DNA from: Ochromonas danica
Taxonomy: Eukaryota; Sar; Chrysophyceae; Chromulinales; Chromulinaceae
Assembly: GCA_015146655.1 (NCBI GenBank)
Contig: VKHL01000019.1
Location: forward strand, 1 to 64,000
Direction: 5' to 3'
DNA: 64,000 bases
The position numbers and the translations under genes are program-made. The notes under the pieces are model-generated. The model was not told the DNA's origin. It searched no databases and was given only the letters and a program-made list of their open reading frames with translations. Shown here piece by piece: positions 11,545 to 64,000 of the stretch. Within the stretch, counting starts at the first letter, position 1. Each line of letters starts with the position of its first letter.

Positions 11545-11552
11545 CCTCACCT

Positions 11553-34835: not shown

Positions 34836-37800
34836 CTATATTACAACATGGCCAGCAACAGCAAGTTCGACCTGTCCACATCGCTCTTGTTCTATGACTT
34901 TGTCATGAGATGATTGACGGCTGCGCTCAACAACTTTCACTCTCCACAGCCAATAAAACAACAACAAAACCACCACAATCAATATCCCTATCCATGCCAA
35001 TACAAAATATAGTCCTTCCCATCCACCTCCTTGGTCTCCTGCAGTATCAAATACATAGCAGGCGTAGAAGAAGGGAATGAGGACAAGCAGCGGCTGCCCT
35101 GCTCGGATGAGACCAGCGCGCATCTTTCCGCATTGCTCTCCCAACTCCAACAACACAGTCTTCCACGCTTTCTTCTCCTTCTCATCATCACGCTCGCCGA
35201 TGAAAGCGCATTCAAGAACTCGAAGCCATCCAATCTGAGTGAGGTAGGTATTCGAAATGATACTTAAACCAATCAAGACAGAGAGATAAGGCAAAACTGA
35301 TCCAAAGGTCAGCAAACATCCCAACATCATCGTCAGGCGGATGACATAATCTCCAGAGGAGAAACAGACAAAGCGTTGACCAACCGAAGGCGAAGGCGAT
35401 AGATTGGACGAACGATTTGCTGAAAAGGCATTAGACGACATTGTATCTTTGATGATTGGATTAATTGCTAATGGACTAACAATAGACTCATTCTCTTTTA
35501 CTGTCATTTGCAATTCTATTTGCTCTTCAACTCTCCACAATAAAGGCAGAATCTTTTCCAATCGTAGTAGCCGTGATGATGAAGAATGACTCTCACCGTC
35601 ACACTTCATTCTTCGCGTTCTCTTCCAATCTCCATACAATACAATGATCATAACGGACAGAGGATAGAGAATACCAATCAAGACATACTTGTAGACAAAG
35701 ACGTATGCATATTCAATCAATAGTGCAGAGCTGCATTGATACGTGTAGTTGAAGGGAGGAGCGAATTCAATGGAATACTCCGCAATCACCACTTCCTCAC
35801 AGCCTAAATCAGCAAACTGTGCACATTGCTGGAAAGGATAGGAAGACTTGATGGTGCTTGGAGAAGAGAAGACGAAGAAGAAGCAGTCAGAGCTGGCAAA
35901 CATAGTGGCCAGACATGGTGCAACGATTGTATTGAAGAGCATCAAACTGCTCACGAATCTCATATTCTCTTGGTGAAGGTCATTAGTTGACAAATGTTGT
36001 AAAGGTTGGAGGAAGCGGACAACACCTTGTTGCATCATCATACTCCAACATACTTTAAAGATTGACAAGGCCACTGAGAGCATCATCGCACTCCATTTCG
36101 GTATTTGTAAGTACAGATAGACGTAAAGACCATTAACAATGGAGACCAAGCCAATATTCACAATAGCCACACCAATCTTCATTGCTAACACTTTCCACCT
36201 CTCTAACTTCACGTCAGCAGGATCCGAGGACTTCGTTTTGTCAATATCCTCCATCGATCGGTCACTATCCGGCAGGTCAACTATCTGCTGGTTGTCACTT
36301 TCCAAATATGGTAGCCGATTGGTCTCATCGAAGCTATCAACTGGTGATATGCCCACTTCGTTTGAATCATTCACAGCCTCTAGTTTGTTGTCTATATCAC
36401 CTCTCTTATCATTGTTTCCATTCAATCTGATCGGCGCTTCACACAGACTCCTCCCAGCAGTTCCAATCGCTACTATCACTAATATAGTGAATAGCACGAG
36501 AAGCAGAGATACCGACACTTTCCCAGAAAGATAAGCAGCAGATAGTGTCCAAACATATTCGTGACTGTACGAGCCGTAAAACGCCGTTAAACAACCAAAA
36601 ATAGGGCTGCCAATACAAATTATCGTTGTCACCATATAAAATACAAAATATCGTATTTGATGCAATAATCTCCCATCCAAGACAATGTCTAACAATCCTT
36701 CCCTGTAATTAAAGGTACCATTGCTAGAAGAAGTAGTATTTACTATTTCGTGCCAAATCTCCTTCCAAAGCCCTTTCCTTTCCAGCATAGAACTTGTTTG
36801 ATTGCTATGAGAAGGAGTGATGATTTGGTCCCAATCAAACTGCTGCCAGAATATTAAACTATCCCACCAATGCTTTAGTTGATGATAGAAGTAATGCAGT
36901 AAAGTCTCATTCTGAGGAATCATTTGATTTTGGTTTTCTGCGAGATGAGAATCCAAGCGCTTCTTCTCGTGTTTGTTGTTAAAGAAGAGCAACACGACCG
37001 CGACGATGACGGCAATCACTAAACCTGTCCAAATTAACAACGCGATATTCAAGGCATCTGACCCACAGCCATATTGTCGATTGTATGGATCAGCTGTGGG
37101 AACATCACTTCTCAAAGCACTAGATGGACAAGAAAACATGCTACCTCGCAACATATTCAAATCCCCCGGGTCTACCAAACCTACATCATAGTAGAAGGAA
37201 GGGATACGACCTGATAGTCGGTTGATATTCAAATAGATAGAGGCATCTGAAGAAAAACCTGTCGACGTCGTGGATGAGTTGCTTGCATCGTCATTCAACT
37301 GCAACTCACCTTTCAATTTGTTGTAGCTTACATCTAACTGGAGCCATCTGCTTCCTCCACGTAGTGGTTGAGGCAGACTGCCTGTGAGGAAGTTATGGGA
37401 CAAAGAAAGATCATTCAAACGAGGTCCTAAGTCACTGTCTTCTGTCACTGGAATGCTCCCAGTGAGACCATTGCCAGCAAGATGAAGCGTTCTCAACTTT
37501 GGCATACTAAATAGACACTTTGGAATCTTGCCATGAATGGCATCTAAATTCAAACTGTAAGAGTGGATTTGAGGCAGAAAAGGTAAAATTGATTGTCGAC
37601 ATGATTTCGCCGTGGAGAGACCATCCAGAGCGAGCACCTGCAAGTGAGTGAGATTGCATAAACTCTCAGGAATAGTACCTGAGAAGCAATTCTGAACAGC
37701 AGCAAAGAAGCTGATATTATTAGGGGTACCAACAGTGAATTCGCCTGGCAATCGACCAGTTAGTTGATTGCTACTGACATCCACAATTTGAAGAAATTCA

Positions 37801-39506
37801 CTGACAACATCTCTCAGCCAGCTTTCTATGGGTCCATCTAGTATATTCGATTGAGCAAAGAAGTAATAAAGGGAGGACATGGAGGAGATGGAGGGTAGAG
37901 TGCCACTGAACAGATTGTTTGAAAAGTCCAGCACCACAGCCTGTGATAAATAAGAAACTCTATTCATGGAGCCTTCGAAATAGTTTTGAGTGACGTTAAA
38001 GAAACTAATGAAGATCAATCCCGGTGCTGGTATGAAGTCTAGTGATCCAGTGAAGCGATTGCATTGAAGCTGCAGCATGTCAAGGAAGGTCATGTTCACG
38101 AGAGAGACCTCGAAGCTCCCAGTGAAGAGATTACTGCCAAGACTCAAGTTATCTAAATAGGTTAGATTACTAATTGCCAATGGGATTCTTCCATGGAATA
38201 GGTTGTTGTTTAAGACGAGATGGAATAGGCCAGACATCTGCCCGAAGCTTTCAGAGACAGTTCCAGTCAACATGTTAAAATCAACCACCAAGCCTTGCCA
38301 TGCGCTTCTCATGAAAATATCCTCTGGAATAGTTCCTGTGAGCAGGTTAGAGCCAACATCCAAATCTATGAAATATCCGTTTGAATTTCCAAAGCCTGTC
38401 GGGATAGTGCCAGTGAGGTAAGCATTACTCACTGAGAGGTACTCTAGCTGAGACATGCTGACGATCTCCCTTGGTATTGTGCCTGTTAGATAATTATGTC
38501 CAATGTCGAGATCAAAGAAGATTCGCAATTGACCCAAAGAGGACGGAATGGTTCCTGTGAGACAATTGTGTGCTGCTTCGAAGACTGCTAATTCAGACAA
38601 GTTCCCAATTTGACGTGAAATAGACCCAGAGAATGCATTCCTCCCAACTGCAAGATGACTCAGACCTTTCAGTTGGTAGAATTGGAGAGGAATTTCTCCT
38701 TCCAACAAGTTCAGATAGAAGTCAAGATTGGAGATGTTCTTTCCCTCATACCACTCTGTGGGAAGTGGTCCCGTTAGAAGGTTCTCATACACAGAGAGGG
38801 TATAAAGTGAACGATTAGAACTTAGCCATCCATTAGGGATTGTTCCGTGGAAAGAGTTACGATCCCAAATGGCCATGTTCAAAACAGGGAGATTGACAAT
38901 GCTAGCAGGGATGTTTCCGTCAAATAGGTTATACCCCACACTCAAAGTCCTAAGACTATGCAAATTCTCTATGCTATTCGATATGGTACCATCTAGTATA
39001 TTGGATTGTAAGTCTAGCACCGTTAGGTTGGACAACTGGAAGAGTTCCTCAGGCAGAGATCCACTGAGGTAACTGTCGGAAATCTCTATTGACTCTAAAC
39101 TATGAAGCTTGCCGATACTGGAAGGAATAGTGCCTGATATGGAAGTGTAAAAGATGAGAAGACTCTGCAGAGCGCTGAGGTTTCCAATAGTGGCGGGCAG
39201 AGTTCCGCGCAGATCACCGTTAAAGTAGATGTACAGCACAGTCAAGGAGGAGAAGTCGCCAATCTCCGCTGGCAGAGTACCATCGAGGTTGACTTGGATA
39301 AAGTCTAGTTCAGTGACTACATCGTGGCAGGCAGTGGCATTGCATAGTTTCTCGCAATACACGCCTTGCCAATGCTCGCCACAAGGGTCTGGATCAGGTT
39401 CTGAGAAATTCCAAGGATTACCATAGCTATACGCCCAATTATCTCCATCAGTTGAATTATAAATAGCAAATAAAGAATTAAACTCCACCACTGGCAAAGA
39501 GGACAT
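34836..39506 (-). CDS. Giant LRR receptor-like protein with polytopic C-terminal domain
   Basis: Single exon, 1556 aa. An LRR N-cap (LFAIYNSTDGDNWAY, CGEHWQGVYC) is followed by some 27 leucine-rich repeats of plant type, with LTGTIP-like motifs at about 24-residue spacing (about 60-780). A membrane segment (IALLIWTGLVIAVIVAVVLLFF, about 822-845) leads to about 700 residues with roughly nine more hydrophobic segments, for example YFVFYMVTTIICIGSPIFG, LIEYAYVFVYKYVLIGILYP and FVLAWIGILIVVVLLLFYW. No kinase domain is present. The N-terminus as modelled lacks a signal peptide, and only 59 bp separate its ATG from the divergent DUF72 gene. Many NxS/T sites point to a glycosylated ectodomain. Function is unknown; sensing or adhesion is plausible. 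Confidence 0.85.
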   Translation of the reverse strand: MSSLPVVEFNSLFAIYNSTDGDNWAYSYGNPWNFSEPDPDPCGEHWQGVYCEKLCNATACHDVVTELDFIQVNLDGTLPAEIGDFSSLTVLYIYFNGDLRGTLPATIGNLSALQSLLIFYTSISGTIPSSIGKLHSLESIEISDSYLSGSLPEELFQLSNLTVLDLQSNILDGTISNSIENLHSLRTLSVGYNLFDGNIPASIVNLPVLNMAIWDRNSFHGTIPNGWLSSNRSLYTLSVYENLLTGPLPTEWYEGKNISNLDFYLNLLEGEIPLQFYQLKGLSHLAVGRNAFSGSISRQIGNLSELAVFEAAHNCLTGTIPSSLGQLRIFFDLDIGHNYLTGTIPREIVSMSQLEYLSVSNAYLTGTIPTGFGNSNGYFIDLDVGSNLLTGTIPEDIFMRSAWQGLVVDFNMLTGTVSESFGQMSGLFHLVLNNNLFHGRIPLAISNLTYLDNLSLGSNLFTGSFEVSLVNMTFLDMLQLQCNRFTGSLDFIPAPGLIFISFFNVTQNYFEGSMNRVSYLSQAVVLDFSNNLFSGTLPSISSMSSLYYFFAQSNILDGPIESWLRDVVSEFLQIVDVSSNQLTGRLPGEFTVGTPNNISFFAAVQNCFSGTIPESLCNLTHLQVLALDGLSTAKSCRQSILPFLPQIHSYSLNLDAIHGKIPKCLFSMPKLRTLHLAGNGLTGSIPVTEDSDLGPRLNDLSLSHNFLTGSLPQPLRGGSRWLQLDVSYNKLKGELQLNDDASNSSTTSTGFSSDASIYLNINRLSGRIPSFYYDVGLVDPGDLNMLRGSMFSCPSSALRSDVPTADPYNRQYGCGSDALNIALLIWTGLVIAVIVAVVLLFFNNKHEKKRLDSHLAENQNQMIPQNETLLHYFYHQLKHWWDSLIFWQQFDWDQIITPSHSNQTSSMLERKGLWKEIWHEIVNTTSSSNGTFNYREGLLDIVLDGRLLHQIRYFVFYMVTTIICIGSPIFGCLTAFYGSYSHEYVWTLSAAYLSGKVSVSLLLVLFTILVIVAIGTAGRSLCEAPIRLNGNNDKRGDIDNKLEAVNDSNEVGISPVDSFDETNRLPYLESDNQQIVDLPDSDRSMEDIDKTKSSDPADVKLERWKVLAMKIGVAIVNIGLVSIVNGLYVYLYLQIPKWSAMMLSVALSIFKVCWSMMMQQGVVRFLQPLQHLSTNDLHQENMRFVSSLMLFNTIVAPCLATMFASSDCFFFVFSSPSTIKSSYPFQQCAQFADLGCEEVVIAEYSIEFAPPFNYTYQCSSALLIEYAYVFVYKYVLIGILYPLSVMIIVLYGDWKRTRRMKCDGESHSSSSRLLRLEKILPLLWRVEEQIELQMTVKENESIVSPLAINPIIKDTMSSNAFSANRSSNLSPSPSVGQRFVCFSSGDYVIRLTMMLGCLLTFGSVLPYLSVLIGLSIISNTYLTQIGWLRVLECAFIGERDDEKEKKAWKTVLLELGEQCGKMRAGLIRAGQPLLVLIPFFYACYVFDTAGDQGGGWEGLYFVLAWIGILIVVVLLLFYWLWRVKVVERSRQSSHDKVIEQERCGQVELAVAGHVVI

Positions 39507-47576: not shown

Positions 47577-49391
47577 CTAGTGACTGTCTTGAAACATGAC
47601 CACCTCTTTGACGAAGAAATCATAGAGCAAGGTAGCTTTCTCATTGTCAAGCGGTTGTGAAGCGTGCTGGACGCCTTCGCGAGTGAGACGACCCAGTCGA
47701 TGTGCTTCACGAGCAATTGCCTCCTTGATGGCCAGGTAGTGGACCGGCAGCAGTGGCAAACGATCGCACAGATCAGCCTCCAATTTAGTCAGCTCGCCAC
47801 CCTCGAGAGCTTGTTGAATAGACTCCTTTAGAGTCAGATTTTCATGACGAGGACGCTTCTCGAAAGATCCTACCGCACAACAAGAAGGGCACATTAGAAG
47901 GGAACAAAGAGAGGGCAATCACTTCTTTTACCTATGGAGGCACCATCAGCGAAACTATCTTGAGTATGCTCCGCGGAACCAAACGACGCATTAGTTGAAG
48001 AGGAGGGATTTTTTGGTGGTCGACCACGCCGCTTCTTAAGCGTAGATTCTGAAGTAACGCTACCCCCATTTTGAGGAACAAGAGGAGCTCCAACAATTGC
48101 TTCATCTGGCCGTTGGAGATAAGAGGCTGATTGGCGCTGGAGTCGCGCTGTTAAGGCTTGATTCTTCTTCTGCAACTCATGCTCTCGCGCCTCCTCAAGT
48201 GTTCTTAGACCTAAAGCCTTATAATTACGATATAGTTCAATTTGAGCTTGTAAGCGACGAGCCTTCAGAATGCCGTCAACCAAGGCATCATAGTCTTCTG
48301 GTGACAGGAATCGAGCAAAGACCCGGAAACGTCCAGCCAGCTCACGTTCCTCCTTGGTCAGTCGCTTCTCCTTAGCCTGTTGGCTTTTAAAATCGATTAA
48401 CCCACGATCAATAACAAACCGCTTACGTCGATTGCGCTCTTCGAGCTTGCGATTGTAAATGCGCAGCACGGAGAGCTTTAACTCTGTCTCACTTGGATGG
48501 TCATCTGGATTAAACTCCATGTTCGCCAATACTTCTTCAGCATCATTTTCATACTCAACATCGAAGTCTTCGCGAAGCGGCATAAAGCCTGGCAAGTCTG
48601 CGCCAGGCAAAGCTGCGAGACGTTCTCGCACAGCCGCTTCGCTGACTTTGCCTGCCTTTCCTGCAGACTCCTTCGAACGCGCTAACTCACCTCTTTGATG
48701 AGTAATGTTGACCCCGATGCGATATAGGTCATCTTTGAGAGCTTCTTTGTAATAAGCATCAGTCTCGGCGAGCTTGGGAAGAACAGACTGCATGGTGAGA
48801 TCCGCCGAGCTGCAGGCAGGTAAGTCTTCCACAGCAGAAGGAAACAAAGATTCAGTATCTTTGTTTCCTTCAGAACTTAAGAATTGAGCGGGCAAGCAAT
48901 AGCCATGCACACCCATGTAGTGGTCCCAGTAGTGCTCCTCTACCTGTTTGGGAGATTTGGTCTCCATCGACTCAGAGATCACCCTCCAGTTGCCCATCCC
49001 ATGCTTCTCGATCACTAGAATAAACATCAAGGTAAGAATAAATATACAAGTAGTTTGCTATAGCAGCTATGGACAGAAGCTTTGCTCACATACATTCTAA
49101 GAGGAGGAGCTCCTCCTTCAAGGACCAGTCCTTGGAAAACACTATCACATTATCCAGGCAATCCGCCACATGATAAGGATGACTACTGTCATGTGGAGGA
49201 AGTCTAACGCCTGCCGAGAAACAGTCGTGGCAGAGCAGAATATTTTCACAGACGGCGCATTTGACAAAGAAAGCGCACCGACCCATCGCTCGAGTACAGA
49301 AAGAACATTTCACGCTGTTGCGAGCTTGCTCCACAGCTGACGGAAAGGGGGCAATAGACTTTTCAACCACATCGTTCAGGGAGTTTGACAT
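47577..49391 (-). CDS. ADA2: Transcriptional adaptor ADA2 (SAGA-type complex subunit)
   Basis: Three exons: 49391-49094, 49014-47932 and 47869-47577 (donors GTATGT and GTAAAA, acceptors CTAG and GTAG), 557 aa. Domain order is the ADA2 order. First, a ZZ zinc finger (CSFCTRAMGR, CAVCENILLCHDCF, then paired His in HDSSHPYHVAD). Second, a SANT domain (DWSLKEELLLLELIEKHGMG then NWRVIS), with the intron inside it, and VEEHYWDHYM. Third, the central ADA2 region (FMPLREDFDVEYENDAEEVL) and a C-terminal SWIRM domain (LTKLEADLCDRLPLLPVHYL). ADA2 activates the GCN5 histone acetyltransferase. A Lys/Arg-rich stretch (KKRRGRPPK, an AT-hook-like motif) precedes the SWIRM domain. Present in the nucleus. Confidence 0.93.
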
Positions 49392-49843: not shown

Positions 49844-51187
49844 CTATCTTTTCTCCGCACACGAGACGAATGAGCGAATCAAATCAACCCAACCAGGGGC
49901 ATGGTAGACGTGATTGTGGTCAACATTGGGGAATATCCTGAGCTGAATAGGCAACGACCCCGCTCCCGCTGATCCTTCGACGTACTCTTGGTCAAAGCGT
50001 TCAATGGGTAGAGTAGAGTCATCGAGCGCGCTATTTCCATCTTTCGATAATAGTGCATCAACATTCTGCTCATTGGAAGCTGAATTTTCACTTGATTGAG
50101 CAGTTCGCTGAAGATCATAAGGACAGTATGCAGTGAAATCAGTCTCTAGAAAAGAGCTATTCGTCACGGCTCTTTGCAATAACCTCTCGGAGTTGTAGGG
50201 AGGCACTTTCCAGTCTTCGTCTCCATGGAGCAACAACGTTGGAATACCGACACGACCAATACGTTCATACGATGGATATACAAATTTCAAACGTTTTGAG
50301 AGAAAGTCCTGGATGATGGGGAAAATGCGAAAAATCAATCCAGCAGGGTGGGTCATGGCTGCTTCACGGAGTGACGTGAATGGAGCGTCCAAGATCAAAC
50401 CCGCAACTCGCGTATCATTCTGCTGACTTAAATCTTCTGCTAGAGCTGTTGCCACACCCGAGCCAAGACTGTGTCCATAGAGAAAAATAGGAGGCTTAGT
50501 TCGCTGAAGAGGAATATTTGCTTCAACCCAGCGAAGAGCCGCCCAAGCATCCAGATGAGTACCAGCTTCCGATGGCCAACCATCCGAGTCACCAAATCCT
50601 CGGTAATCAAATGCAATCACATGTGCATTTAGAGAAGAGGCGATCAATTGCGTCTTTTCGATGCGAAAGGGTAGAGCTCGTGTTCCTCCGCTGCCATGGA
50701 AATAGAGGAAAATCCGCTCAGCACTTTCCAAAGCGGGCAAAGAAGGAGAATTTTGAGGTGGATAGATATGATATCCGCGCAACAGGAGATTGTCTTGGGT
50801 AATAAGGTCGATATTATAGGCATTGGTAAGGTTGACGTAGCTGTGGTCCCGCAGATCGCCCGCTGGGAATCTCAGAAAGTGCATATAGGCCAAGACCGAT
50901 TGCAGAGTCTCCGAATAGGCGAAAAGGAGGCATATAGCCAGATAGAAGAGAAGGGGAAGTATCACCAACTTGCGAGTTATTCTCAATGGCCAATTATCAA
51001 CCTTCTTCGATTGCCCGATGGTGGATTTAGTGGTCTGGCTTCCACGATCTTGGAGAATTTTGAATGCAATAGAATCTTCAGATTCATCTTTACTCTTCTG
51101 ACCACTGTGACCAGATTTATTGTCAGGATAGCTTCTTCCTCTTATACCATCTGGACTTGATGATCCAACAGAAGTACTATTTCCCAT
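49844..51187 (-). CDS. ABHD12-like alpha/beta hydrolase (lysophospholipase)
   Basis: Single exon; the first ATG in frame at 51187 gives 447 aa beginning MGNSTSVGSSS, a good N-myristoylation signal (Gly2, Ser6-type context). A membrane segment (LVILPLLFYLAICLLFAYS) follows. The hydrolase domain shows FLYFHGSGGTRA (oxyanion region), AFDYRGFGDSDG, FLYGHSLGSGVATAL (GxSxG nucleophile), LILDAPFTS, LLLHGDEDWKVP (catalytic Asp) and NVDHNHVY (catalytic His). This matches ABHD12, in animals a membrane lysophosphatidylserine lipase. A Ser/Asp-rich insert lies before the final His. Membrane topology would differ if myristoylated on the cytosolic side. Confidence 0.88.
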   Translation of the reverse strand: MGNSTSVGSSSPDGIRGRSYPDNKSGHSGQKSKDESEDSIAFKILQDRGSQTTKSTIGQSKKVDNWPLRITRKLVILPLLFYLAICLLFAYSETLQSVLAYMHFLRFPAGDLRDHSYVNLTNAYNIDLITQDNLLLRGYHIYPPQNSPSLPALESAERIFLYFHGSGGTRALPFRIEKTQLIASSLNAHVIAFDYRGFGDSDGWPSEAGTHLDAWAALRWVEANIPLQRTKPPIFLYGHSLGSGVATALAEDLSQQNDTRVAGLILDAPFTSLREAAMTHPAGLIFRIFPIIQDFLSKRLKFVYPSYERIGRVGIPTLLLHGDEDWKVPPYNSERLLQRAVTNSSFLETDFTAYCPYDLQRTAQSSENSASNEQNVDALLSKDGNSALDDSTLPIERFDQEYVEGSAGAGSLPIQLRIFPNVDHNHVYHAPGWVDLIRSFVSCAEKR

Positions 51188-51381
51188 TTTGTTCTCTGTT
51201 GTTCTGAGAGTTGTTGGGCTAGGAATGTGTTGAATTCTTCCGTGCGGTTGTTCTCTCTTTTCGGTTTTCTCCGTTTTCGGTTTTGTTCCGGCAGCAGAGA
51301 GAGAAAACCCAAAACGCGGTGGGATTTTCCGTGATTTTTCGGTATTTTCCGATCGATGCGCTATGAATCTTCTATATGTTT

Positions 51382-51423
51382 GGGTCAAAAATGTCGAATA
51401 CCTTCTTGGTATGGGTCAAAAAT
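51382..51423. promoter_or_regulatory. Direct repeat GGGTCAAAAAT, two copies
   Basis: Identical 11-mers at 51382-51392 and 51413-51423, 31 bp apart (about three helical turns), in the divergent promoter and ending 7 bp before the ATG at 51431. Confidence 0.35.
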
Positions 51424-51430
51424 ACTGTAA

Positions 51431-53524
51431 ATGGCTCATCCATCACATCACATTAATAAATCACACCGCTTTGTGATAGATTTGTTTGATTGGGTTCGTA
51501 AACATGGGCTATCTGCGTCACATTTTCTGGCCACCGGAGAAACTTTCCTTGACAGTCACGGAGTGAGAAGATACTTGCACAATTGGCAGCCCGTCTATCA
51601 TAGCAATGACGAAGATGACTTTACAGAGGGAACGATACGCTTTCTCGCTCATCAAACAGGGTGTAAGAAGGTTATCGTTTCTTGCGAACAACCTATAACA
51701 CCCACTGCATCCACTGCGGATCAAAGCTCACGGAGCGACAAAATAAGCCGAACGGTTTACCACCCTGCAATCTTTCTGCAAGACTGGGAGCGGTTGTGGG
51801 CATTTCTTGAAATGGATAACGAAGATGAGATTGCCATTCAAGCGCCTTTGCTGCGTGCTTACGTTGAGTTCTTTTTCCATCAGAAGACTTGCTGGTTGAT
51901 GATCTCGCTCTATCTCTACAATCTTCTCGTGTTTCTCATTTTGGAGGCAAGTGTCGCACCTCCATGGGGAACGAAATTGGAGTTCCTATATGAGCACGTG
52001 TTGCTAGCTATTCAGCTGCTGGTATATTTGGCATTGATGCTGTTGTTTAAAGGCTACATTTTCTATCCTCCACCTCAGCACAGCTCGTGGGAAGAAGAAG
52101 ACCCAGAGGAAGGAATAAGACATGATATAGATAGTCAAAAGCATCCCGATCCAAGCAGTCTCTCATCCAAAAAGAAATCTCCTTCGGGAAAGATCATCTT
52201 TCATTCCGTTCAGTGGACGCGCACATTTGTACAATTAATCAATCGGGTACGCATTGAAATAAAAGAACTATGTATCACCAAGCCGCCACACCTTGGACAA
52301 CGTCAATTCCAACCTCTTCGTAAGAGAGTTTCGTATTATACCTTGATGAATATCGCTCTCAAGTTCTTGACTCGATATAATGGAATTGATCCTCAGAAGA
52401 TCAACTTTAATCGCAGATCCTATCGCTTAGTCTTATTATTTATTGTGACGGGTCTGCCCATCTACCAACTTGTAAACACTTATTTGTATCCTTACCTTTC
52501 GAAAGTGCGTAACTCATGCACCGATGATTTTGAAGGCTCTTATTGCCAGTATTATCTCTTAGAGTGCCTCATGACTGGGGGCATGATGACTCTCATTGTG
52601 ATGCAGTACATCTATGGTGCGTCTGTTTTCTTAAGTCTCGCTGGATTGGCTTATGGTGGTGAGATAACACATCGATTGGCGAACTCGTGGATGGAGAAGT
52701 TTTGTTGCTTGCGGAAGGTTCATCTTCGTCCAGGAAATGATAACGATGATGATGACAATGATCAAGACAATGGAAGTGAGGATGAAGGCGATGCGAATAG
52801 CGACAGTGACCAAGACAGTGCTTTTGATGAAATTGGAAGCAGTGTGAGAAGAGAAGTGAAGGCTTTTGTTCCCGATGAGAAAGAAGTATCAAAAAGAGAG
52901 GAAGAAAAGAAAAGTCGGGATGTTTGTGACCGTTCTCTTAATCCCATGATCTCAATTCATTCGGTGGTTGGAAGAGAAAGGAGTCAGCGAGTAATCACTG
53001 CGAGCAGAAAAGAAGGAGTTCTCTTCTCTTGCGGTTCAAGTGAATTGAAAGATCACCTCTTGCATGACGCAACAGAGCACTATCTCTTCATTCGTGAGGT
53101 CATGGCAGCTTGTGGTCACATTTGGTCGGTGGGGTTGACCGGTTTGTTTGCATTGGCTATCTATATTATTGTAGCCTATTCTACCTTCTCCGTCTATTTC
53201 TACAAGTTGGACAGTGGAGTGACAATATGGCAATTGATTATTGTCATGATTGTTCGCACCCTCTTGTTGATCATCTATCCCATTGCGAGTGTCTGTCATG
53301 CGAATACGTATATTTATGAGCTGCAGGAAACGTTCTCGATGGCGGCGCCTGATGACTTTAGTGTGCTGGGAGGACGAGATCGCTGGGTGGCACTTCTTCA
53401 ACAAAGTCCAGCGGTGTGGACTTACTATGGCCTGTGGATCACCTACGATCGTCTTCTGGGACTGGCTTGGACGATGATCGCGGCTCTGGCAGCTTATGTC
53501 TTCTCTGTGCTCTTCCGAAGCTAG
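51431..53524 (+). CDS. Polytopic membrane protein of unknown function
   Basis: Single exon, 697 aa. About 160 N-terminal cytosolic residues with a globular look (FVIDLFDWVRKHGLSASHFL) lead into paired membrane segments (LMISLYLYNLLVFLILEAS; LLAIQLLVYLALMLLF), a loop, more segments near 345-420, then an acidic Asp/Asn/Glu-rich loop (about 450-480), a conserved-looking stretch SLNPMISIHSVVGRERSQRV, and four or so segments to the end (GLFALAIYIIVAYSTFSVYF; LIIVMIVRTLLLIIYPIA; WTMIAALAAYVFSVLF). No family recognised. The tandem duplication breaks this gene near codon 499, and its last 199 codons recur at 60644-61242. Two copies of GGGTCAAAAAT lie just before the ATG. Confidence 0.8.
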   Translation: MAHPSHHINKSHRFVIDLFDWVRKHGLSASHFLATGETFLDSHGVRRYLHNWQPVYHSNDEDDFTEGTIRFLAHQTGCKKVIVSCEQPITPTASTADQSSRSDKISRTVYHPAIFLQDWERLWAFLEMDNEDEIAIQAPLLRAYVEFFFHQKTCWLMISLYLYNLLVFLILEASVAPPWGTKLEFLYEHVLLAIQLLVYLALMLLFKGYIFYPPPQHSSWEEEDPEEGIRHDIDSQKHPDPSSLSSKKKSPSGKIIFHSVQWTRTFVQLINRVRIEIKELCITKPPHLGQRQFQPLRKRVSYYTLMNIALKFLTRYNGIDPQKINFNRRSYRLVLLFIVTGLPIYQLVNTYLYPYLSKVRNSCTDDFEGSYCQYYLLECLMTGGMMTLIVMQYIYGASVFLSLAGLAYGGEITHRLANSWMEKFCCLRKVHLRPGNDNDDDDNDQDNGSEDEGDANSDSDQDSAFDEIGSSVRREVKAFVPDEKEVSKREEEKKSRDVCDRSLNPMISIHSVVGRERSQRVITASRKEGVLFSCGSSELKDHLLHDATEHYLFIREVMAACGHIWSVGLTGLFALAIYIIVAYSTFSVYFYKLDSGVTIWQLIIVMIVRTLLLIIYPIASVCHANTYIYELQETFSMAAPDDFSVLGGRDRWVALLQQSPAVWTYYGLWITYDRLLGLAWTMIAALAAYVFSVLFRS

Positions 53525-56282
53525 TGCCATGCACTACCATTACCGTACCTCTAGATTATAGGATTGCTTTCCAGAATTTGTCGTTTCATCAATCAGCCTC
53601 TTTGGCCAATAGTTTAAAGCTATATTAGTTAGCTACTAGTCAAGGTGTGGAAGAAAACACATACTGTAGCCTAGCTGTCTTCCTCCATCTCGTCTCCACT
53701 GCTGTCTTCTGGAATCTCTCCATGCAAAGCATAGGAAATGCGCTTCAACTCCATCTTCAACTGCCCAATCTGTTTCCTTACGCCTTCTATATCGGTCTTC
53801 CTCTGCTGGACACTGAGGTCCTTGATCTCTTCTCCATATGTGATGAGATGCTCTAAGGCAGTCTTCTCTGTGATGATTATTAGCAATGAACGAGATGAGA
53901 TCGCACAGATTCTCGAAGGAAAGAGATATGAAAAATAAAGGAGGGAAGATACCACTCACCTCGCTCAGTCTGATGCAGCTCATCAGTGTATTCCTTCGTT
54001 TTGTGCACGGGCTGCTCTCCAAATACATAGTTCATGTGCTGAGGAACTCGGTCCCTGGGATCCATTAGGCCGTGAGCATCTATCTTGTCGCCTCGACGAG
54101 AATAGAGTGTCCCACAAGCTACCTTCTTCTCGATGCAATACTTTCGGTATTGTGAAGCGGCGTGCAGAGTATCAAAAAGAATGCTTATGCCAAAGATGGC
54201 ATTGAAGATGGTGTCTCGCAGACCTTCTCTCTCAGTATCCAACCGCAACACATTGACAAGATATTGAGGATTGCCAGGAGCTGGTTCTCCATTGATTTGG
54301 ACGGATGGCAAAGGAAGCAGTCCCTGAGCTTTTTCTTCACTCGAACGTTCTCTCAAACTCCCCAAATTATTGCTGTTGCGAAACGTCATCGCAAATGGTT
54401 TGATGTGGCCTATGGCCCATGCTTTGACTCCTCGAGAGAAGAGTTCTTCAGCTATTTCATGAGTGGACACAATCCATGCATCCATATACTTCTGGGCATG
54501 ATATGAGAGGATGCGAGCCTCAGAAGGGTCATTAACATAGGCAAGGTCTACCAGCATGCCCAGTCCTCCACTATTGGATACCAACACAGGGTCAGGACCC
54601 TGGCTCTTGACGGCAGGCCTCGGAGCTGAACAGCGACCTTGCAAATGTCCCAGCTGACTCAATCGGTTCTGCCGCAGGCTGCGCAAAGTCTCTAGATCGT
54701 CCAAGGACTGGACTACCGTTTCGGAAACATTTGCCAGCTGAGCGTTACGTTGCTTCTTGAGCTCGTTAATCTGTGCCGCAAGTCCTTCGAAATGCCTTTC
54801 TTCCGCTCGCAGTCGCTGTAACTCTGTCTTCAACCTGGCTTGCTCTTCATCATAATGCTCACGGTCAGCATATTGGAAGGGGATTTCATGCCGCAGTTCA
54901 CCACGAGAGGTCTTCAGGAGAAAGCACAGGCCGTAAGTTCCCGCGGGACAACTCGAGCTTTGCTTGACGGAGATATCTTGAAAGCTAAATCCTTCTCCAT
55001 CCCATTTCGCTGTTAAGAGTCCACCTTCAGCATTTTCCAACAACGGCACGTCATTGCTGTTGGCAGAAACCGCAATGACCTGGCAAGTGAGCACCAGACT
55101 GTCCTCCTCCAAACTACACACGTTTCCATGCGCATCCATAACTTCGATGCGGGGTTTCCTGAGAATCAGGCGATGACCAGAGATCTCAGTATTAGTCACT
55201 ACACTGTTGACTGGGTGACCATTTGACCCAAAGTTCAATTTGGACGGACGAGCAGGCGAAATTTTCACCTTCACTTTTGCTGAATGCTCGCGTAGATCCT
55301 TCGGAAGATTAGCATATTCTACTCTAGACTCAGTGTAAGAGACCTTTATCTCATACTCACCGACTTTGGAGGTAAGGTTCTCAACTTGAGGTGTTCCATT
55401 GGATGACACTCGGATTGTTTGTGCTGCATCCAGAACTTCAGCGTCGAAAAGGTCTGAGAACTGCATCTTTTTCTTCTTGTTGCTTTCCGATTTGAATCTG
55501 AAGTGGAAGTCTGTCATGACATGTTTGAAAGGAGCGCCATTGTCTGTCATAGCCTGAATTCTGATATCAGGCCAGCGTGTTCCAGCTATCAAGTGAACAA
55601 TATAATTTTGTTCATCCTTCGTAACTTTGGTTCCTTCCTGTTGGGAGCATTCCTGAATAAACTTTATTTCTAGATTGTTGATATGATCACACCGTACAGG
55701 ATGACAACAAAGAACTGCTTCTGGTAACCTGTGCGTTGTTCCTTTTGTGTTGAAAGAGACCTCGAAATGCAGTTTGAACGTATTCAGATCCTCCTGGGTA
55801 TTAGGTGTTGCAGAGGCAGACTTCCTCCTGGCGTCAAATAAAGCCTTCATATCATAATCCAATGAAAGCGTGGTATAATGGGAATGAATGCGCTCAGGTT
55901 GATAAGGCACTTGATGCCCGTCATCAGTAGAAATTGTTAACTGCATATCTTGAACTCCGTTGAGTGACGCTTGTCCACCCGATGTATCAACCAAATGCAA
56001 AGCTATATCATCCAGCTTCGAGAAAACAGCCACGTTCACATCGGCAACAGAGGTAGCTTGGGCTATTTTCAAAGACTTGGAGGAAAGTCGGACGGAGGCC
56101 GGAATGCCACCACGAACAATGGTTTGCAAAGGAGATGCTTCGTGTAAAGGACAATCAGGTGTGCTTGCCGCAATGCGAATCCTCGTGTTGGGTTCAAACA
56201 GCTGTGAAAGGGATGCTTGAAGGGGTAGACTTAATCCAGCAATCTCCAGTGCTGGTTGTCCAAGTTCGGTTTCCACAGTCAG
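52926..56282 (+). repeat. Long direct repeat, left copy
   Basis: This 3357-bp segment recurs at 60644-64000 in the same orientation with no difference that I could find. The identity starts abruptly at 52926 and the right copy is still matching at the window end. The offset is constant at 7718 bp, also for every reading frame in the block. Confidence 0.97.
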
Positions 56283-59200
56283 CGGCCCAGGAACTAACTC
56301 CAATACTTGCATGCTCTCCTGGTCTTCCTTTCCACCTTCAGATTCGGTAGATATGGTCAGCTCTGCATTGCTCAATAAGTTATAGGGGAAGTCAGAAAGA
56401 AGATTGTCGTGCTTATCCACACAACCCAGTCCTCGAATCTTCTTCGCAAGATCCTCCTCATCCAAGGTTCGGATGCCATCTTCTAAGCTACAAGAAGAGA
56501 TGATCTTCAGACCACAAGGATCTCCAGGTAGGACACGAACATGCAAGGAATGGAAGAGCTCGATGTCTTTTGATAAGGAAAGCTCTAAATCAAAATGAAC
56601 CGTCTGGTGGGCGACTTCAGGCACAGTCAATTTGGGCAATACACCATCAGAAGGAATTTGCTCCTTCTTGCGCTTTCCGCGCTTTTTGACCAACCACGAA
56701 CATTCCAACGAAGATGTTCGATTGATATGATCAGATATGTCAGCGATGACCTTATTGGTGGCGTCAAGCAGCTCAAATGACAGATTGCTCAGGACAGCTC
56801 CAGCGACCAACTCGATTTCATCAGGCAAAACCTCTCCATCATGGCGCAACTGGATCTTGCAAGGCAGCTGAGAAGGAAGGAAGTGGAACTGCAAGTAAAG
56901 AGGCTCCACCAAACTGTCCATGGCTTCATCTCCAGTCGCAAGGCGTAATTCATAGCTCTCTTCCTCTCCTGATTCATCCACGGTGGGAAGGCTAGACAAC
57001 CACTCCAGCGAGAGATGAGTCTCTTCGTGGCCAGGACGCATCGATGCTTCCGAAGCAGCGAGCATCTTGCCACTCTTCAGCTGTATCCTCCATCGACTGT
57101 TTTCATCTGACCGCTGGGGAGCCACCGAGTTTCCCCATCGATCTCGAACGACAATGGTAAGCTTGGGGAGCTGACTTCCCATCTTGATTGGAATGGGGGG
57201 TGTCTCTTCTCCAACAACGACAAGATTCCTTGGATGTCCTGGGAGAATGGAGAACTCCACCTCTTTCCGAATAGTCAATGAAGAAGCCAAGACCACTTCA
57301 AACAATACTCGAACTTTGCTACCTTTCACGCCAATCGCTATGTCGTCATCACCTACCATCATGTTGGTCATCTCTACAAACCATGATCCTTTTCGAACTT
57401 CAAACTCGCCCCTCTGATCTCCTGACAACAAGTACTTCCCATCCCACCCTTCTCTCCGCACGACGGTGATACAATCTGATTGAGCTGTTGCGCTGACCAA
57501 CACTTCTCCGCTGTACAACACACCACCTTCGCTATCGTTGCTCAAGGACATAGTCAAAGTGGGAAGGGGATTGTCTAAATAAATGGGCTTCTTTGCTTCC
57601 GGACACTGAATGGTTAATGCCGTGGGATTAATAGATATAACACGCACGTCAACTTGCCCATCATAAACGACAACATCTTTACCCTCCAGTTTGGAAAGCA
57701 CTTTAACGATAAACTTATGATTGCCGGGATTTGCTATATTTATATCAACAAATTTGTAGCCGAGCTTGCTCATGTTAGAGTTCGTGATCGTTGCGACCTC
57801 GTCTTTCTTGTCTGGATCAAACAGCTTCTTATCCCGTCCCAAGTCTGCGGTTCGCCCTTCTTGATCCTCAATTTGTAATTCAACTTCATACCTGTGGCTT
57901 TTCCCATTTGGATGAAATGGGAGGCTGAAGACAGGATTGTCTTGAGCATCTCGAAGCATGAAGTACAAGTTATACTTCGCACAAGAGCCAACCAGGTATT
58001 CTTCCATGTTCCTGGCAGCCTGATTTTGAGGATCGAAAACAATAGCATCCCTGGCAACAATAATATCCGCAGGAAGTTTGTCCAGATAAGATTTCTCATC
58101 TTCTTCTGTGACCTACAAAGGATGACATTCATTAGTTAGAACTTCTATACTCAACGACCTGCGAGAACGACATGTGGAGAAGAATATGATACCCATCAGC
58201 AGCATACCTACCTTGCATTGTCCAGCATTATCTGCTGCGAAAAGTGCCGAGACACTAGCTTTATTCACTACTTCACCCAGGATATGGGAGGGTAGTAGCG
58301 AGTATCGAAAATAACCTGTGCCACAATAAGTTGCTTGGTCTAATGACAATGGTCTTGGGATCTCGAAGTCTATGATTTGTGCGTAGTACTCAATAGCAGA
58401 CTTCGCCTTCCATCTCACTTTGTCTCCAGCCACCAGTTTAATCTTACCTTGGCGCGAGTAGTTCATTTCTCGGAAATAGCTGCATAGAGATTCATAAGGC
58501 GGTGTTGCTCGTCTGTCGTCTGCCTTTATTCGCCCACTAAAATAAAATTCACGGTCAAACTGTCCGCACTTCACCAGAAAATCCATGAAGCGGTTGGCGC
58601 AATCTTTCGGTTTGACAAGCATCTTGTCTTTCACTTCCTTGGAGTTGACCCAGGTATTGAAATCAGGTGAAACAAGCAGACGAAGTTTGTTATTGGAGAT
58701 GTGATTGAAGGTCCAATCGAAGAATAGAAATCCCTGAATTCTCTTCGGCCAGTTCAACGCCACGCCCAGGTTAGACAGATTGGTCTTGGGATCGTTGAGC
58801 TTATCGAAGAAGGGTAGAGTAGACCAAGTGCTTTGAGGGACGAGTCGCCTTTGCCAATAAACAAAATATTTTGGTTGATTCACCGAAGACTCACCGCCAT
58901 CGCTTGTATTGTCATGATCAGGATGGGTCTCGTGATCATGGAAGTAAGGGTAATAGGAGATCATACCATAAACAGGACACCTCTTCACGGGATCTAGCTG
59001 GGAAAGCTGCGTTGAAATGCCACGCTCCGCTTGAGAAGGTGGAGAAGGATCCAAAACCTGCAGCTCGAACTTGAACGTGTCTCTACGCTCCTTGATGAAG
59101 AGATGACTGCGGCAGGTTTCATTGTCATTCAAGATAACCTCCTTCATGCTTTTCCCTCGACTGAACATGCGATAACTAATAAACGGAGAGATAGCTACAT

Positions 59201-60055
59201 CGTTTTGACTTCGATGATTGGGCATGGGCATAGCCTCGGGGTGCAGGTGGAAGTAGTAAATGTCTGCCAGGTCATTTCCCAGCTGCATTCCATCCTCTTC
59301 CATCTGTATGGATATTTCCTCGCGCAACTTGATCACAATCACAGTGAAGCTACTGCTTGACGCGAATTCGTGGATGGCTTCCCAGACACTCTGAGAATAG
59401 TCCAAAGGACAAGGTGGTTGTTCTTGCAAAGACCTCGTTGAAGCCAATCTGTAGACATTATCTGAGTAGATGTTTTGCTGAAGTCGATACCGATCCTCAA
59501 ACGTGCTTTCATCCATCGTGAAATAGAGCACATGGGGAGAGGAAGCAGACTTGGAGATTATGGAGATGCTGTGGCCCAGATAAAAGCCAGCCTGCTTCGC
59601 GCCAACGCCGAACTTCGAGATGTAGTGATGGTCAGATTCATCTGTCGGACTTATGTTGCGAGTTTTGCGATCTAGTGCGAATGTGGCGAAGGCTTTAATG
59701 TCATCAACATCCATACCACACCCATTGTCCGCCACCACGACGAAATTGGATGGTGAGTTTTGATGCGTTGAAATGGAAATCATGCTGTTATTGACATCTT
59801 TGGAGAACTGGATCGAATTGTCAATGAGCTCCGCCAAGGCATCAGCATGTCCTAGATGTCACGGAGAAACACAGGAAAGGAAAAGTAAACAGTCAAGCAG
59901 ACAGGGAAGAAAAGAGATGGAGGCTCAGTAGCCTGCTCATTCAATTTCATGGGGAGAGGGGAAAACTCACGATTGAAATGATGTCTTCCTTGCTCAGTGA
60001 CGGACTTGTAATGAGGCTCATATTGGATTGTTTCCATGGCATGGTCTTCTGTCAT
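53671..60055 (-). CDS. SMCHD1: SMCHD1/GMI1-like GHKL ATPase with SMC hinge
   Basis: Four exons: 60055-59971, 59851-58212, 58112-53960 and 53867-53671 (donors GTGAGT, GTAGGT and GTGAGT), 2024 aa, close to human SMCHD1 (2005). Residues 30-560 form the ATPase: ALAELIDNS (Glu36, Asn40), VVVADNGCGM (Asp70, Gly72, Gly74) and KFGVGAKQAGFYLG. A long middle part of Ig-like beta repeats follows (LPGHPRNLVV, LPGDPCGLKI type). A coiled coil (about 1660-1733) precedes an SMC hinge (about 1755-1940: LVDLAYVNDPSEARILSYHA, ASQYRKYCIEKKVACGTLYS) and a final coiled coil. In animals it silences the inactive X; plant relatives GMI1 and DMS3 act in repair and RNA-directed methylation. The N-terminal ubiquitin-like domain of animals is missing or lies in an unseen exon. 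Confidence 0.93.
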
Positions 60056-60138
60056 GGATATGTCACCAAGCTGTGGGTTGTCAACTCTGGAACTTGTTGC
60101 ATGCTGTGCAGTTAGTCGTTGGCTGGATACGCTACTCT

Positions 60139-60149
60139 CTTAAGTTAAC
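60139..60149 (-). promoter_or_regulatory. Candidate promoter motif GTTAACTTAAG
   Basis: On the strand of the SMCHD1-like gene, 84-94 bp before its ATG at 60055. Confidence 0.35.
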
Positions 60150-60230
60150 GTCTGCTTTCTCACGACCCCATAGCATAGTGCGTAAGGAAACGAGAATGCA
60201 AAGCATTTTTGCATCACCAAGATGTGACCA

Positions 60231-60280
60231 ACTCGTTGACTCCTTTCTCTTCCAACTACCGAATGAATAGAGATCATGGG
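60231..60280 (-). repeat. Inverted, diverged fragment of the membrane-protein gene
   Basis: The reverse complement of 60231-60280 matches 52943-52992 at 47 of 50 positions. Similarity continues with gaps to about 60316 (GGGATGTTT and an A-rich stretch shared with bases before 52926). So the fragment spans both sides of the duplication breakpoint and is clearly older than the identical direct repeat. Confidence 0.85.
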
Positions 60281-60643
60281 GTTATGAAACATCCCTACTT
60301 TTCTCCCTTTTGGATATTTATTTGGAAACGCATTTTCCAAAGAAACGCACTTTTAACGTTACTCCACATGTGCAATCCAGCAGCCATTCGGCATTGCATT
60401 GAAAAGTTGTCGTCATTTTGGTGTTGTCAGTTGTATGATCATCTTCAAAAGCTATATTTCCATCCATCTTGGTTACCTGGCCCCCCTCAGCCATCACCAC
60501 TTTGATCTCCTCCTCGCTTGTCACTAATAGATCTTCATCTTAACAACCAGCATTGAAGGATGACAAAAATGAGCAAAAGGATATCATAATCAGAACTAGT
60601 TAGGATTCAATTAGTTCCCATGTGCATTGCAATAAAGCGGTTG

Positions 60644-61242
60644 GTGACCGTTCTCTTAATCCCATGATCTCAATTCATTCGGTGGTTGGAAGAGAAAGGA
60701 GTCAGCGAGTAATCACTGCGAGCAGAAAAGAAGGAGTTCTCTTCTCTTGCGGTTCAAGTGAATTGAAAGATCACCTCTTGCATGACGCAACAGAGCACTA
60801 TCTCTTCATTCGTGAGGTCATGGCAGCTTGTGGTCACATTTGGTCGGTGGGGTTGACCGGTTTGTTTGCATTGGCTATCTATATTATTGTAGCCTATTCT
60901 ACCTTCTCCGTCTATTTCTACAAGTTGGACAGTGGAGTGACAATATGGCAATTGATTATTGTCATGATTGTTCGCACCCTCTTGTTGATCATCTATCCCA
61001 TTGCGAGTGTCTGTCATGCGAATACGTATATTTATGAGCTGCAGGAAACGTTCTCGATGGCGGCGCCTGATGACTTTAGTGTGCTGGGAGGACGAGATCG
61101 CTGGGTGGCACTTCTTCAACAAAGTCCAGCGGTGTGGACTTACTATGGCCTGTGGATCACCTACGATCGTCTTCTGGGACTGGCTTGGACGATGATCGCG
61201 GCTCTGGCAGCTTATGTCTTCTCTGTGCTCTTCCGAAGCTAG
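60644..61242 (+). pseudogene. 5'-truncated copy of the polytopic membrane-protein gene
   Basis: The last 199 codons of the 51431-53524 gene are repeated here without change, preceded by unrelated sequence. The frame continues upstream to 60622 without an ATG; the first in-frame ATG lies within the copied part (in NPMISIH). It would encode only the C-terminal three to four membrane segments. No decay is visible, so the truncation is recent. It is most likely non-functional, but a transcript from unrelated upstream sequence cannot be excluded. Confidence 0.85.
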
Positions 61243-61388
61243 TGCCATGCACTACCATTACCGTACCTCTAGATTATAGGATTGCTTTCCAGAATTTGTC
61301 GTTTCATCAATCAGCCTCTTTGGCCAATAGTTTAAAGCTATATTAGTTAGCTACTAGTCAAGGTGTGGAAGAAAACACATACTGTAGC

Positions 61389-64000
61389 CTAGCTGTCTTC
61401 CTCCATCTCGTCTCCACTGCTGTCTTCTGGAATCTCTCCATGCAAAGCATAGGAAATGCGCTTCAACTCCATCTTCAACTGCCCAATCTGTTTCCTTACG
61501 CCTTCTATATCGGTCTTCCTCTGCTGGACACTGAGGTCCTTGATCTCTTCTCCATATGTGATGAGATGCTCTAAGGCAGTCTTCTCTGTGATGATTATTA
61601 GCAATGAACGAGATGAGATCGCACAGATTCTCGAAGGAAAGAGATATGAAAAATAAAGGAGGGAAGATACCACTCACCTCGCTCAGTCTGATGCAGCTCA
61701 TCAGTGTATTCCTTCGTTTTGTGCACGGGCTGCTCTCCAAATACATAGTTCATGTGCTGAGGAACTCGGTCCCTGGGATCCATTAGGCCGTGAGCATCTA
61801 TCTTGTCGCCTCGACGAGAATAGAGTGTCCCACAAGCTACCTTCTTCTCGATGCAATACTTTCGGTATTGTGAAGCGGCGTGCAGAGTATCAAAAAGAAT
61901 GCTTATGCCAAAGATGGCATTGAAGATGGTGTCTCGCAGACCTTCTCTCTCAGTATCCAACCGCAACACATTGACAAGATATTGAGGATTGCCAGGAGCT
62001 GGTTCTCCATTGATTTGGACGGATGGCAAAGGAAGCAGTCCCTGAGCTTTTTCTTCACTCGAACGTTCTCTCAAACTCCCCAAATTATTGCTGTTGCGAA
62101 ACGTCATCGCAAATGGTTTGATGTGGCCTATGGCCCATGCTTTGACTCCTCGAGAGAAGAGTTCTTCAGCTATTTCATGAGTGGACACAATCCATGCATC
62201 CATATACTTCTGGGCATGATATGAGAGGATGCGAGCCTCAGAAGGGTCATTAACATAGGCAAGGTCTACCAGCATGCCCAGTCCTCCACTATTGGATACC
62301 AACACAGGGTCAGGACCCTGGCTCTTGACGGCAGGCCTCGGAGCTGAACAGCGACCTTGCAAATGTCCCAGCTGACTCAATCGGTTCTGCCGCAGGCTGC
62401 GCAAAGTCTCTAGATCGTCCAAGGACTGGACTACCGTTTCGGAAACATTTGCCAGCTGAGCGTTACGTTGCTTCTTGAGCTCGTTAATCTGTGCCGCAAG
62501 TCCTTCGAAATGCCTTTCTTCCGCTCGCAGTCGCTGTAACTCTGTCTTCAACCTGGCTTGCTCTTCATCATAATGCTCACGGTCAGCATATTGGAAGGGG
62601 ATTTCATGCCGCAGTTCACCACGAGAGGTCTTCAGGAGAAAGCACAGGCCGTAAGTTCCCGCGGGACAACTCGAGCTTTGCTTGACGGAGATATCTTGAA
62701 AGCTAAATCCTTCTCCATCCCATTTCGCTGTTAAGAGTCCACCTTCAGCATTTTCCAACAACGGCACGTCATTGCTGTTGGCAGAAACCGCAATGACCTG
62801 GCAAGTGAGCACCAGACTGTCCTCCTCCAAACTACACACGTTTCCATGCGCATCCATAACTTCGATGCGGGGTTTCCTGAGAATCAGGCGATGACCAGAG
62901 ATCTCAGTATTAGTCACTACACTGTTGACTGGGTGACCATTTGACCCAAAGTTCAATTTGGACGGACGAGCAGGCGAAATTTTCACCTTCACTTTTGCTG
63001 AATGCTCGCGTAGATCCTTCGGAAGATTAGCATATTCTACTCTAGACTCAGTGTAAGAGACCTTTATCTCATACTCACCGACTTTGGAGGTAAGGTTCTC
63101 AACTTGAGGTGTTCCATTGGATGACACTCGGATTGTTTGTGCTGCATCCAGAACTTCAGCGTCGAAAAGGTCTGAGAACTGCATCTTTTTCTTCTTGTTG
63201 CTTTCCGATTTGAATCTGAAGTGGAAGTCTGTCATGACATGTTTGAAAGGAGCGCCATTGTCTGTCATAGCCTGAATTCTGATATCAGGCCAGCGTGTTC
63301 CAGCTATCAAGTGAACAATATAATTTTGTTCATCCTTCGTAACTTTGGTTCCTTCCTGTTGGGAGCATTCCTGAATAAACTTTATTTCTAGATTGTTGAT
63401 ATGATCACACCGTACAGGATGACAACAAAGAACTGCTTCTGGTAACCTGTGCGTTGTTCCTTTTGTGTTGAAAGAGACCTCGAAATGCAGTTTGAACGTA
63501 TTCAGATCCTCCTGGGTATTAGGTGTTGCAGAGGCAGACTTCCTCCTGGCGTCAAATAAAGCCTTCATATCATAATCCAATGAAAGCGTGGTATAATGGG
63601 AATGAATGCGCTCAGGTTGATAAGGCACTTGATGCCCGTCATCAGTAGAAATTGTTAACTGCATATCTTGAACTCCGTTGAGTGACGCTTGTCCACCCGA
63701 TGTATCAACCAAATGCAAAGCTATATCATCCAGCTTCGAGAAAACAGCCACGTTCACATCGGCAACAGAGGTAGCTTGGGCTATTTTCAAAGACTTGGAG
63801 GAAAGTCGGACGGAGGCCGGAATGCCACCACGAACAATGGTTTGCAAAGGAGATGCTTCGTGTAAAGGACAATCAGGTGTGCTTGCCGCAATGCGAATCC
63901 TCGTGTTGGGTTCAAACAGCTGTGAAAGGGATGCTTGAAGGGGTAGACTTAATCCAGCAATCTCCAGTGCTGGTTGTCCAAGTTCGGTTTCCACAGTCAG
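61389..64000 (-). CDS. SMCHD1-like gene, second copy (3' part; 5' part outside window)
   Basis: Exon 4 at 61585-61389 and exon 3 from the window end to 61678 copy the first gene exactly, covering about residues 1186 to 2024: the last Ig-like repeats, the coiled coil, the hinge and the C-terminal coil. The splice sites are conserved. All reading is open to the window edge. If the duplication is tandem, a complete gene with its own promoter would follow to about 67773. Function as for the first copy. Confidence 0.85.

Follow-up and report, generated by a model that had tools for sequence, protein, structure and literature searches.

A perfect direct repeat in Ochromonas danica consistent with tandem duplication of a gene for an SMCHD1-like ATPase

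The window analyzed here is a stretch of 64,000 nt from Ochromonas danica, and toward its right end it carries two convergent genes, one for a probable membrane protein and one for an SMCHD1-like ATPase. The left neighbor gene is located at 51431–53524 on the plus strand, and it encodes a probable multi-pass membrane protein of 697 amino acid residues with six hydrophobic segments. No Pfam family was matched at an E-value of 0.01, and the AlphaFold2 model computed without an alignment (pLDDT 42) was set aside. Pfam matches elsewhere in the window included a TMEM260-like protein and an adaptor of ADA2 type, which, like the predicted GT–AG introns, are eukaryotic in character. A leucine-rich-repeat protein of 1556 amino acid residues is encoded in a single open frame at 34836–39506 (minus strand) with LRR families found in Pfam, and a frame of 987 residues at 8587–11550 (minus strand) appears to join a putative methyltransferase-type part to a following FAD monooxygenase-type part. 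Self-comparison revealed imperfect palindromic stretches at 1–67 and 48837–48871, the second of which lies inside the ADA2-like ORF. Plastid-type leader peptides, as read from several translated ORFs of the window, suggest a secondary plastid.

The SMCHD1-like gene (53671–60055, minus strand) was modeled from predicted splice sites and open reading frames as four exons (59971–60055, 58212–59851, 53960–58112 and 53671–53867) encoding a protein of 2025 amino acid residues. Its three introns, as predicted, measure 119, 99, and 92 bp and are all of the GT...AG type. Exon 2 matched the Pfam families SMCHD1_S5 (E-value 2.1e-16; 60.7 bits, with a cut-off of 27) and HATPase_c_3 (1.1e-13). The N-terminal part of the protein aligned with the SMCHD1 ATPase module of PDB entry 6mw7 (E-value 3.3e-18), and the C-terminal part of exon 3 aligned over 171 residues with the SMCHD1 hinge of entry 6n64 (E-value 2e-06), for which the source species is not given. 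These Pfam and PDB matches support the SMCHD1-like identity that the first-pass annotation had proposed. Pfam searches of exon 3 gave nothing above the cut-off, and no hinge family either.

The predicted protein resembles human SMCHD1, which consists of a GHKL ATPase, an S5/transducer domain, and an SMC hinge, and its length compares with the 2005 residues given for the human protein in the available part of PMC6620310. It differs from human SMCHD1 in that the modeled N-terminus has no ubiquitin-like domain and that exon 3 has no Pfam match above the cut-off. The same source assigns catalytic roles to Glu147, Asn151, and Lys525 of the human protein and reports an E147A crystal; 6mw7 appears to be this construct, since Ala occupies that place. 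In the alignment with 6mw7, which spans the ATPase and the transducer, Glu, Asn, and Lys are kept at the positions of Glu147, Asn151, and Lys525 (numbered by our own count), which correspond to the Glu and Asn of GHKL ATPase motif I and to the switch-loop lysine of the S5/transducer domain. Because these residues are kept at the catalytic positions, the SMCHD1-like ATPase is likely to be active, as judged from its sequence. Arabidopsis GMI1, described in PMC3707822 and PMC5651269 as combining an SMC hinge with a GHKL ATPase module, the layout also seen in the window protein, is proposed there as a plant counterpart of SMCHD1, the likely one according to PMC3707822, so that an SMCHD1-like layout in another eukaryote is unsurprising. 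No paper on SMCHD1 in protists or stramenopiles was found in the literature searched.

Exact comparison revealed that positions 52926–56282 (plus strand; the visible part of copy 1) are identical to positions 60644–64000 (plus strand; the visible part of copy 2, which continues past the window) at 3357 of 3357 bases with an offset of 7718, which agrees with the perfect 3.4-kb direct repeat claimed in the first-pass annotation. Chance is impossible as the source of an identity of this length. The left edge of the repeat is exact, the preceding base being T at 52925 and G at 60643, and on the right the match continues up to position 64000, where the window ends. Based on the offset and the sharp left boundary, a tandem unit of 7718 bp (copy 1) would extend over 52926–60643 (plus strand), its right boundary following from the tandem model, and the head-to-tail junction of the copies would lie at 60643/60644, where the sequences to the left of 60644 and of 52926 differ from the first base. 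The visible part of copy 2 thus comprises 3357 of 7718 bases, the remaining 4361 bases (57%) of its predicted length falling beyond the window.

Since the 64,000-nt window contains no N bases, there is no marked gap at 60643/60644. Exact microhomology was absent on the left side of the junction, the right side being beyond the window. Apart from the direct repeat, the plus-strand repeated 30-mers across the window derived only from a 4-bp microsatellite near 1855, and the three short arrays reported by Tandem Repeats Finder for 50000–64000 were not located at either repeat edge. When the 104 stop-to-stop frames of at least 100 amino acids in the window were compared with each other, five pairs matched at an E-value of 1e-4, and all five belonged to this direct repeat.

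Copy 2 opens with the duplicated 3′ tail of the left neighbor gene (60646–61242, plus strand), an open frame of 198 codons that lacks the neighbor gene's start and has no Pfam match. The frame of the left neighbor itself is open across the left edge of the unit, and an intact neighbor at copy 1 combined with its tail at copy 2 is what a tandem duplication usually leaves behind. The visible 3′ part of the second SMCHD1-like gene, placed by the offset of 7718, occupies 61389–64000 (minus strand) and includes exon 4, intron 3, and part of exon 3, with an identical open frame of 800 amino acids. The first-pass annotation had described the identity as including the introns; this holds for intron 3 (53868–53959 in copy 1), which is seen in both copies, whereas introns 1 and 2 of copy 2 would fall past 64000. 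It had also proposed two complete gene copies, for which the 3′ part of the second gene can be seen, but the 4361 bp of copy 2 outside the window, and possibly exons past 60643, would have to be added.

The whole SMCHD1-like model lies inside the inferred 7718-bp unit, with its start codon at 60055, 588 bp to the left of the junction. To this extent the entire gene with its promoter would be contained in the unit, as previously claimed, but the model starts at the ATPase domain and has no ubiquitin-like domain. Homology with 6mw7 begins at chain residue 94 (human residue 112 by our own count), 6 residues after the model start codon. In human SMCHD1, the ubiquitin-like domain (residues 25–109) precedes the ATPase, and SMCHD1 constructs without this domain fail to dimerize, as stated in the available text of PMC6620310. 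Either the ubiquitin-like domain is absent in this lineage or it is encoded in exons further upstream, and since the model starts at the ATPase without it, a 5′ exon beyond 60643 is possible.

Between the start codon at 60055 and the junction, the sole coding-like frame is an open frame of 73 codons (60321–60539, minus strand), and 104 bp separate its upstream end from the junction. At 6.0 bits over 72 codons, its codon score is one that genuine coding DNA also attains, which is suggestive and not decisive: 34% of 139 true coding stretches scored the same or lower, and none of 37 wrong-frame open stretches reached the score. Of 117 open stretches that overlap known coding sequence, 8 reached it, some of these being true exon frames or parts of the repeat counted twice. 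Among the other open stretches outside known genes, 4 of 62 scored higher. The translated frame gave no match in Pfam and one chance-level match in PDB (E-value 0.93), and the AlphaFold2 model made without an alignment (pLDDT 37) was uninformative. The frame may be the 3′ (last) exon of the next gene, possibly its cut tail, or a 5′ exon of the SMCHD1-like gene, or it may be open by chance.

The sequence upstream of the SMCHD1-like gene also contains a decayed inverted fragment of the left neighbor gene, a feature absent from the first-pass annotation. The fragment (60206–60342, minus strand; core 60231–60304) was aligned to 52863–53010 (plus strand) with a BLASTN E-value of 6e-16 and a 57-nt arm at 91% identity, and 108 of 121 aligned bases were identical in the gapped alignment, in which the reading frame is broken by an 11-bp gap and a stop. 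Seven of the 13 substitutions are synonymous versus 3.3 expected (p = 0.02, from one alignment with weak ends), and a run of 18 residues is unchanged. This synonymous excess and the unchanged run hint that much of the divergence accrued while the sequence was constrained as coding DNA, for example in a paralogue existing now or formerly elsewhere in the genome; its source would be either the left neighbor gene or a paralogue of it. With a divergence of 9–11%, the inverted fragment long predates the perfect repeat.

The left edge of the unit (52926) falls in the stretch that aligns with the inverted fragment, about a base or less away from the 11-bp alignment gap, and in the DNA fold the inverted arms now pair as a hairpin on either side of the junction (z −8.3). 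An origin of the duplication driven by the inverted repeat was considered and rejected: inverted arms offer no simple route to a direct duplication, the aligned fragment ends 301 bp before the right edge, and the left-edge coincidence was noticed post hoc.

In our view, the locus is best explained by the simple tandem duplication, head to tail, of a chromosomal block of 7718 bp (52926–60643), to which we give a probability of roughly 0.7. The assembled sequence shows two direct copies side by side, joined head to tail at a novel junction, and this reading is favored by the perfection of the repeat, by its one sharp edge, and by the absence of N at the junction. The tandem duplication of the first-pass annotation is accordingly kept as the simplest reading of identical adjacent direct copies, with the reservations that more than half of the predicted copy 2 is outside the window and that neither left-side microhomology at the junction nor a related contig in the collections searched was found. 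The locus resembles an ordinary segmental tandem duplication of a gene-sized block in its direct orientation, adjacency, identical copies, and inclusion of a gene tail, and it differs in that the right edge is beyond the window and that the event is known from the assembled sequence alone. The older inverted fragment, derived from the neighbor gene or a paralogue and lying 339 bp to the left of the junction, lends weak support, since it implies that the locus took up copied pieces earlier.

What is directly observed is the repeat with its identical copies, sharp left edge, and gene content; under a tandem duplication, copy 2 would extend to about 68361, and the junction would be present in the cell. 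The duplicated block would take in the SMCHD1-like gene as modeled together with the first 588 bp upstream of it, and from the convergent left neighbor only the 3′ tail. Such a duplication need disrupt no gene, as the left neighbor would stay intact at copy 1 and any gene crossing 60643 should remain intact at the right edge of copy 2. Its probable effect would be a raised dosage of the SMCHD1-like ATPase, or the decay of one copy to a pseudogene.

The perfect identity, together with a repeat end that lies beyond the window, is also compatible with an assembly artefact, a possibility already named in the first-pass annotation, in which a chimeric read or an error in filling a gap or resolving a loop caused one genomic copy to be written twice and the junction is absent in the cell; we regard this as the principal alternative, though an unlikely one. 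A wrong loop or fill can yield a perfect copy, and in the portion of PMC9516828 considered here, duplicates with no differing k-mers are counted as a class of false duplication, the homotype class including duplicates with no heterozygous k-mers. Same-scaffold false duplications are given there as 7–24% in previous assemblies and 61–92% in newer ones. According to the same portion, false duplications arise chiefly from divergent haplotypes and less often from read errors, with one assembly in which the other class was larger. Both of these sources should leave differences, and none was seen in 3357 bp, so that the copies carry neither the haplotype-like nor the error-like differences of the major and minor sources named. 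Moreover, false duplicates are described there as mostly separated by gaps, sometimes by a gap in read depth, whereas the junction at 60643/60644 contains no N.

A circle of 52926–60643 or an array would yield the same head-to-tail junction and offset, and the contig might partly incorporate either a circular extrachromosomal copy of 7.7 kb or an array with three or more units. The contig, however, joins the unit to unique left-hand DNA, so that at least one copy is chromosomal, and there is no sign of a circle in particular; we therefore give this reading very little weight. Equally improbable is a partial duplication in which copy 2 diverges between 64000 and 68361 and the second SMCHD1-like gene is a 5′-truncated fragment: it would fit the visible part of copy 2, which ends inside exon 3, but tandem duplication of the whole unit is the simplest account of a copy that lies next to the first and points the same way.

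With no difference in 3357 bp, the divergence between the copies is at most 0.089% (95% upper bound). At the 4.77e-10 base substitutions per site per generation reported for Phaeodactylum in the section of PMC6604790 used here, a borrowed diatom rate that may not be that of the host, the age of the duplication would be up to about 9.4 × 10^5 generations with a median of 2.2 × 10^5. The previous suggestion that total identity implies a very recent event was thus too strict; a fairly recent event fits, but the identity sets only a bound, within which about 9 × 10^5 generations are allowed. Gene conversion or assembly polishing could also sustain such identity.

Searches of two contig collections, in neither of which a eukaryote would be expected, gave no counterpart of the locus. 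The exact junction pattern had no match in viral_contigs and an exact within-unit pattern had none in genome_contigs, and tblastn confirmed no relative of the ATPase exon, whether among the 20 pattern matches from viral_contigs or among the 29 from genome_contigs.

A more elaborate scenario would have two SMCHD1-like ATPases carried and expressed from a locus that repeatedly acquires pieces, with copy 1 either placed under a rearranged 588-bp promoter that contains the decayed inverted piece of the neighbor or, being without the N-terminal dimerization domain, regulating a full-length copy; we regard it as speculative and improbable. On the plainest view, the repeat would reflect either an unremarkable change in copy number or an error of assembly. 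The locus also places an SMCHD1-like gene with ATPase, S5, and hinge parts in what, judged by gene content, is probably a plastid-bearing alga, and if the tandem duplication is real, it would constitute a natural change in the dosage of an SMCHD1-like ATPase, in the form of a young duplicate prone to loss or divergence.
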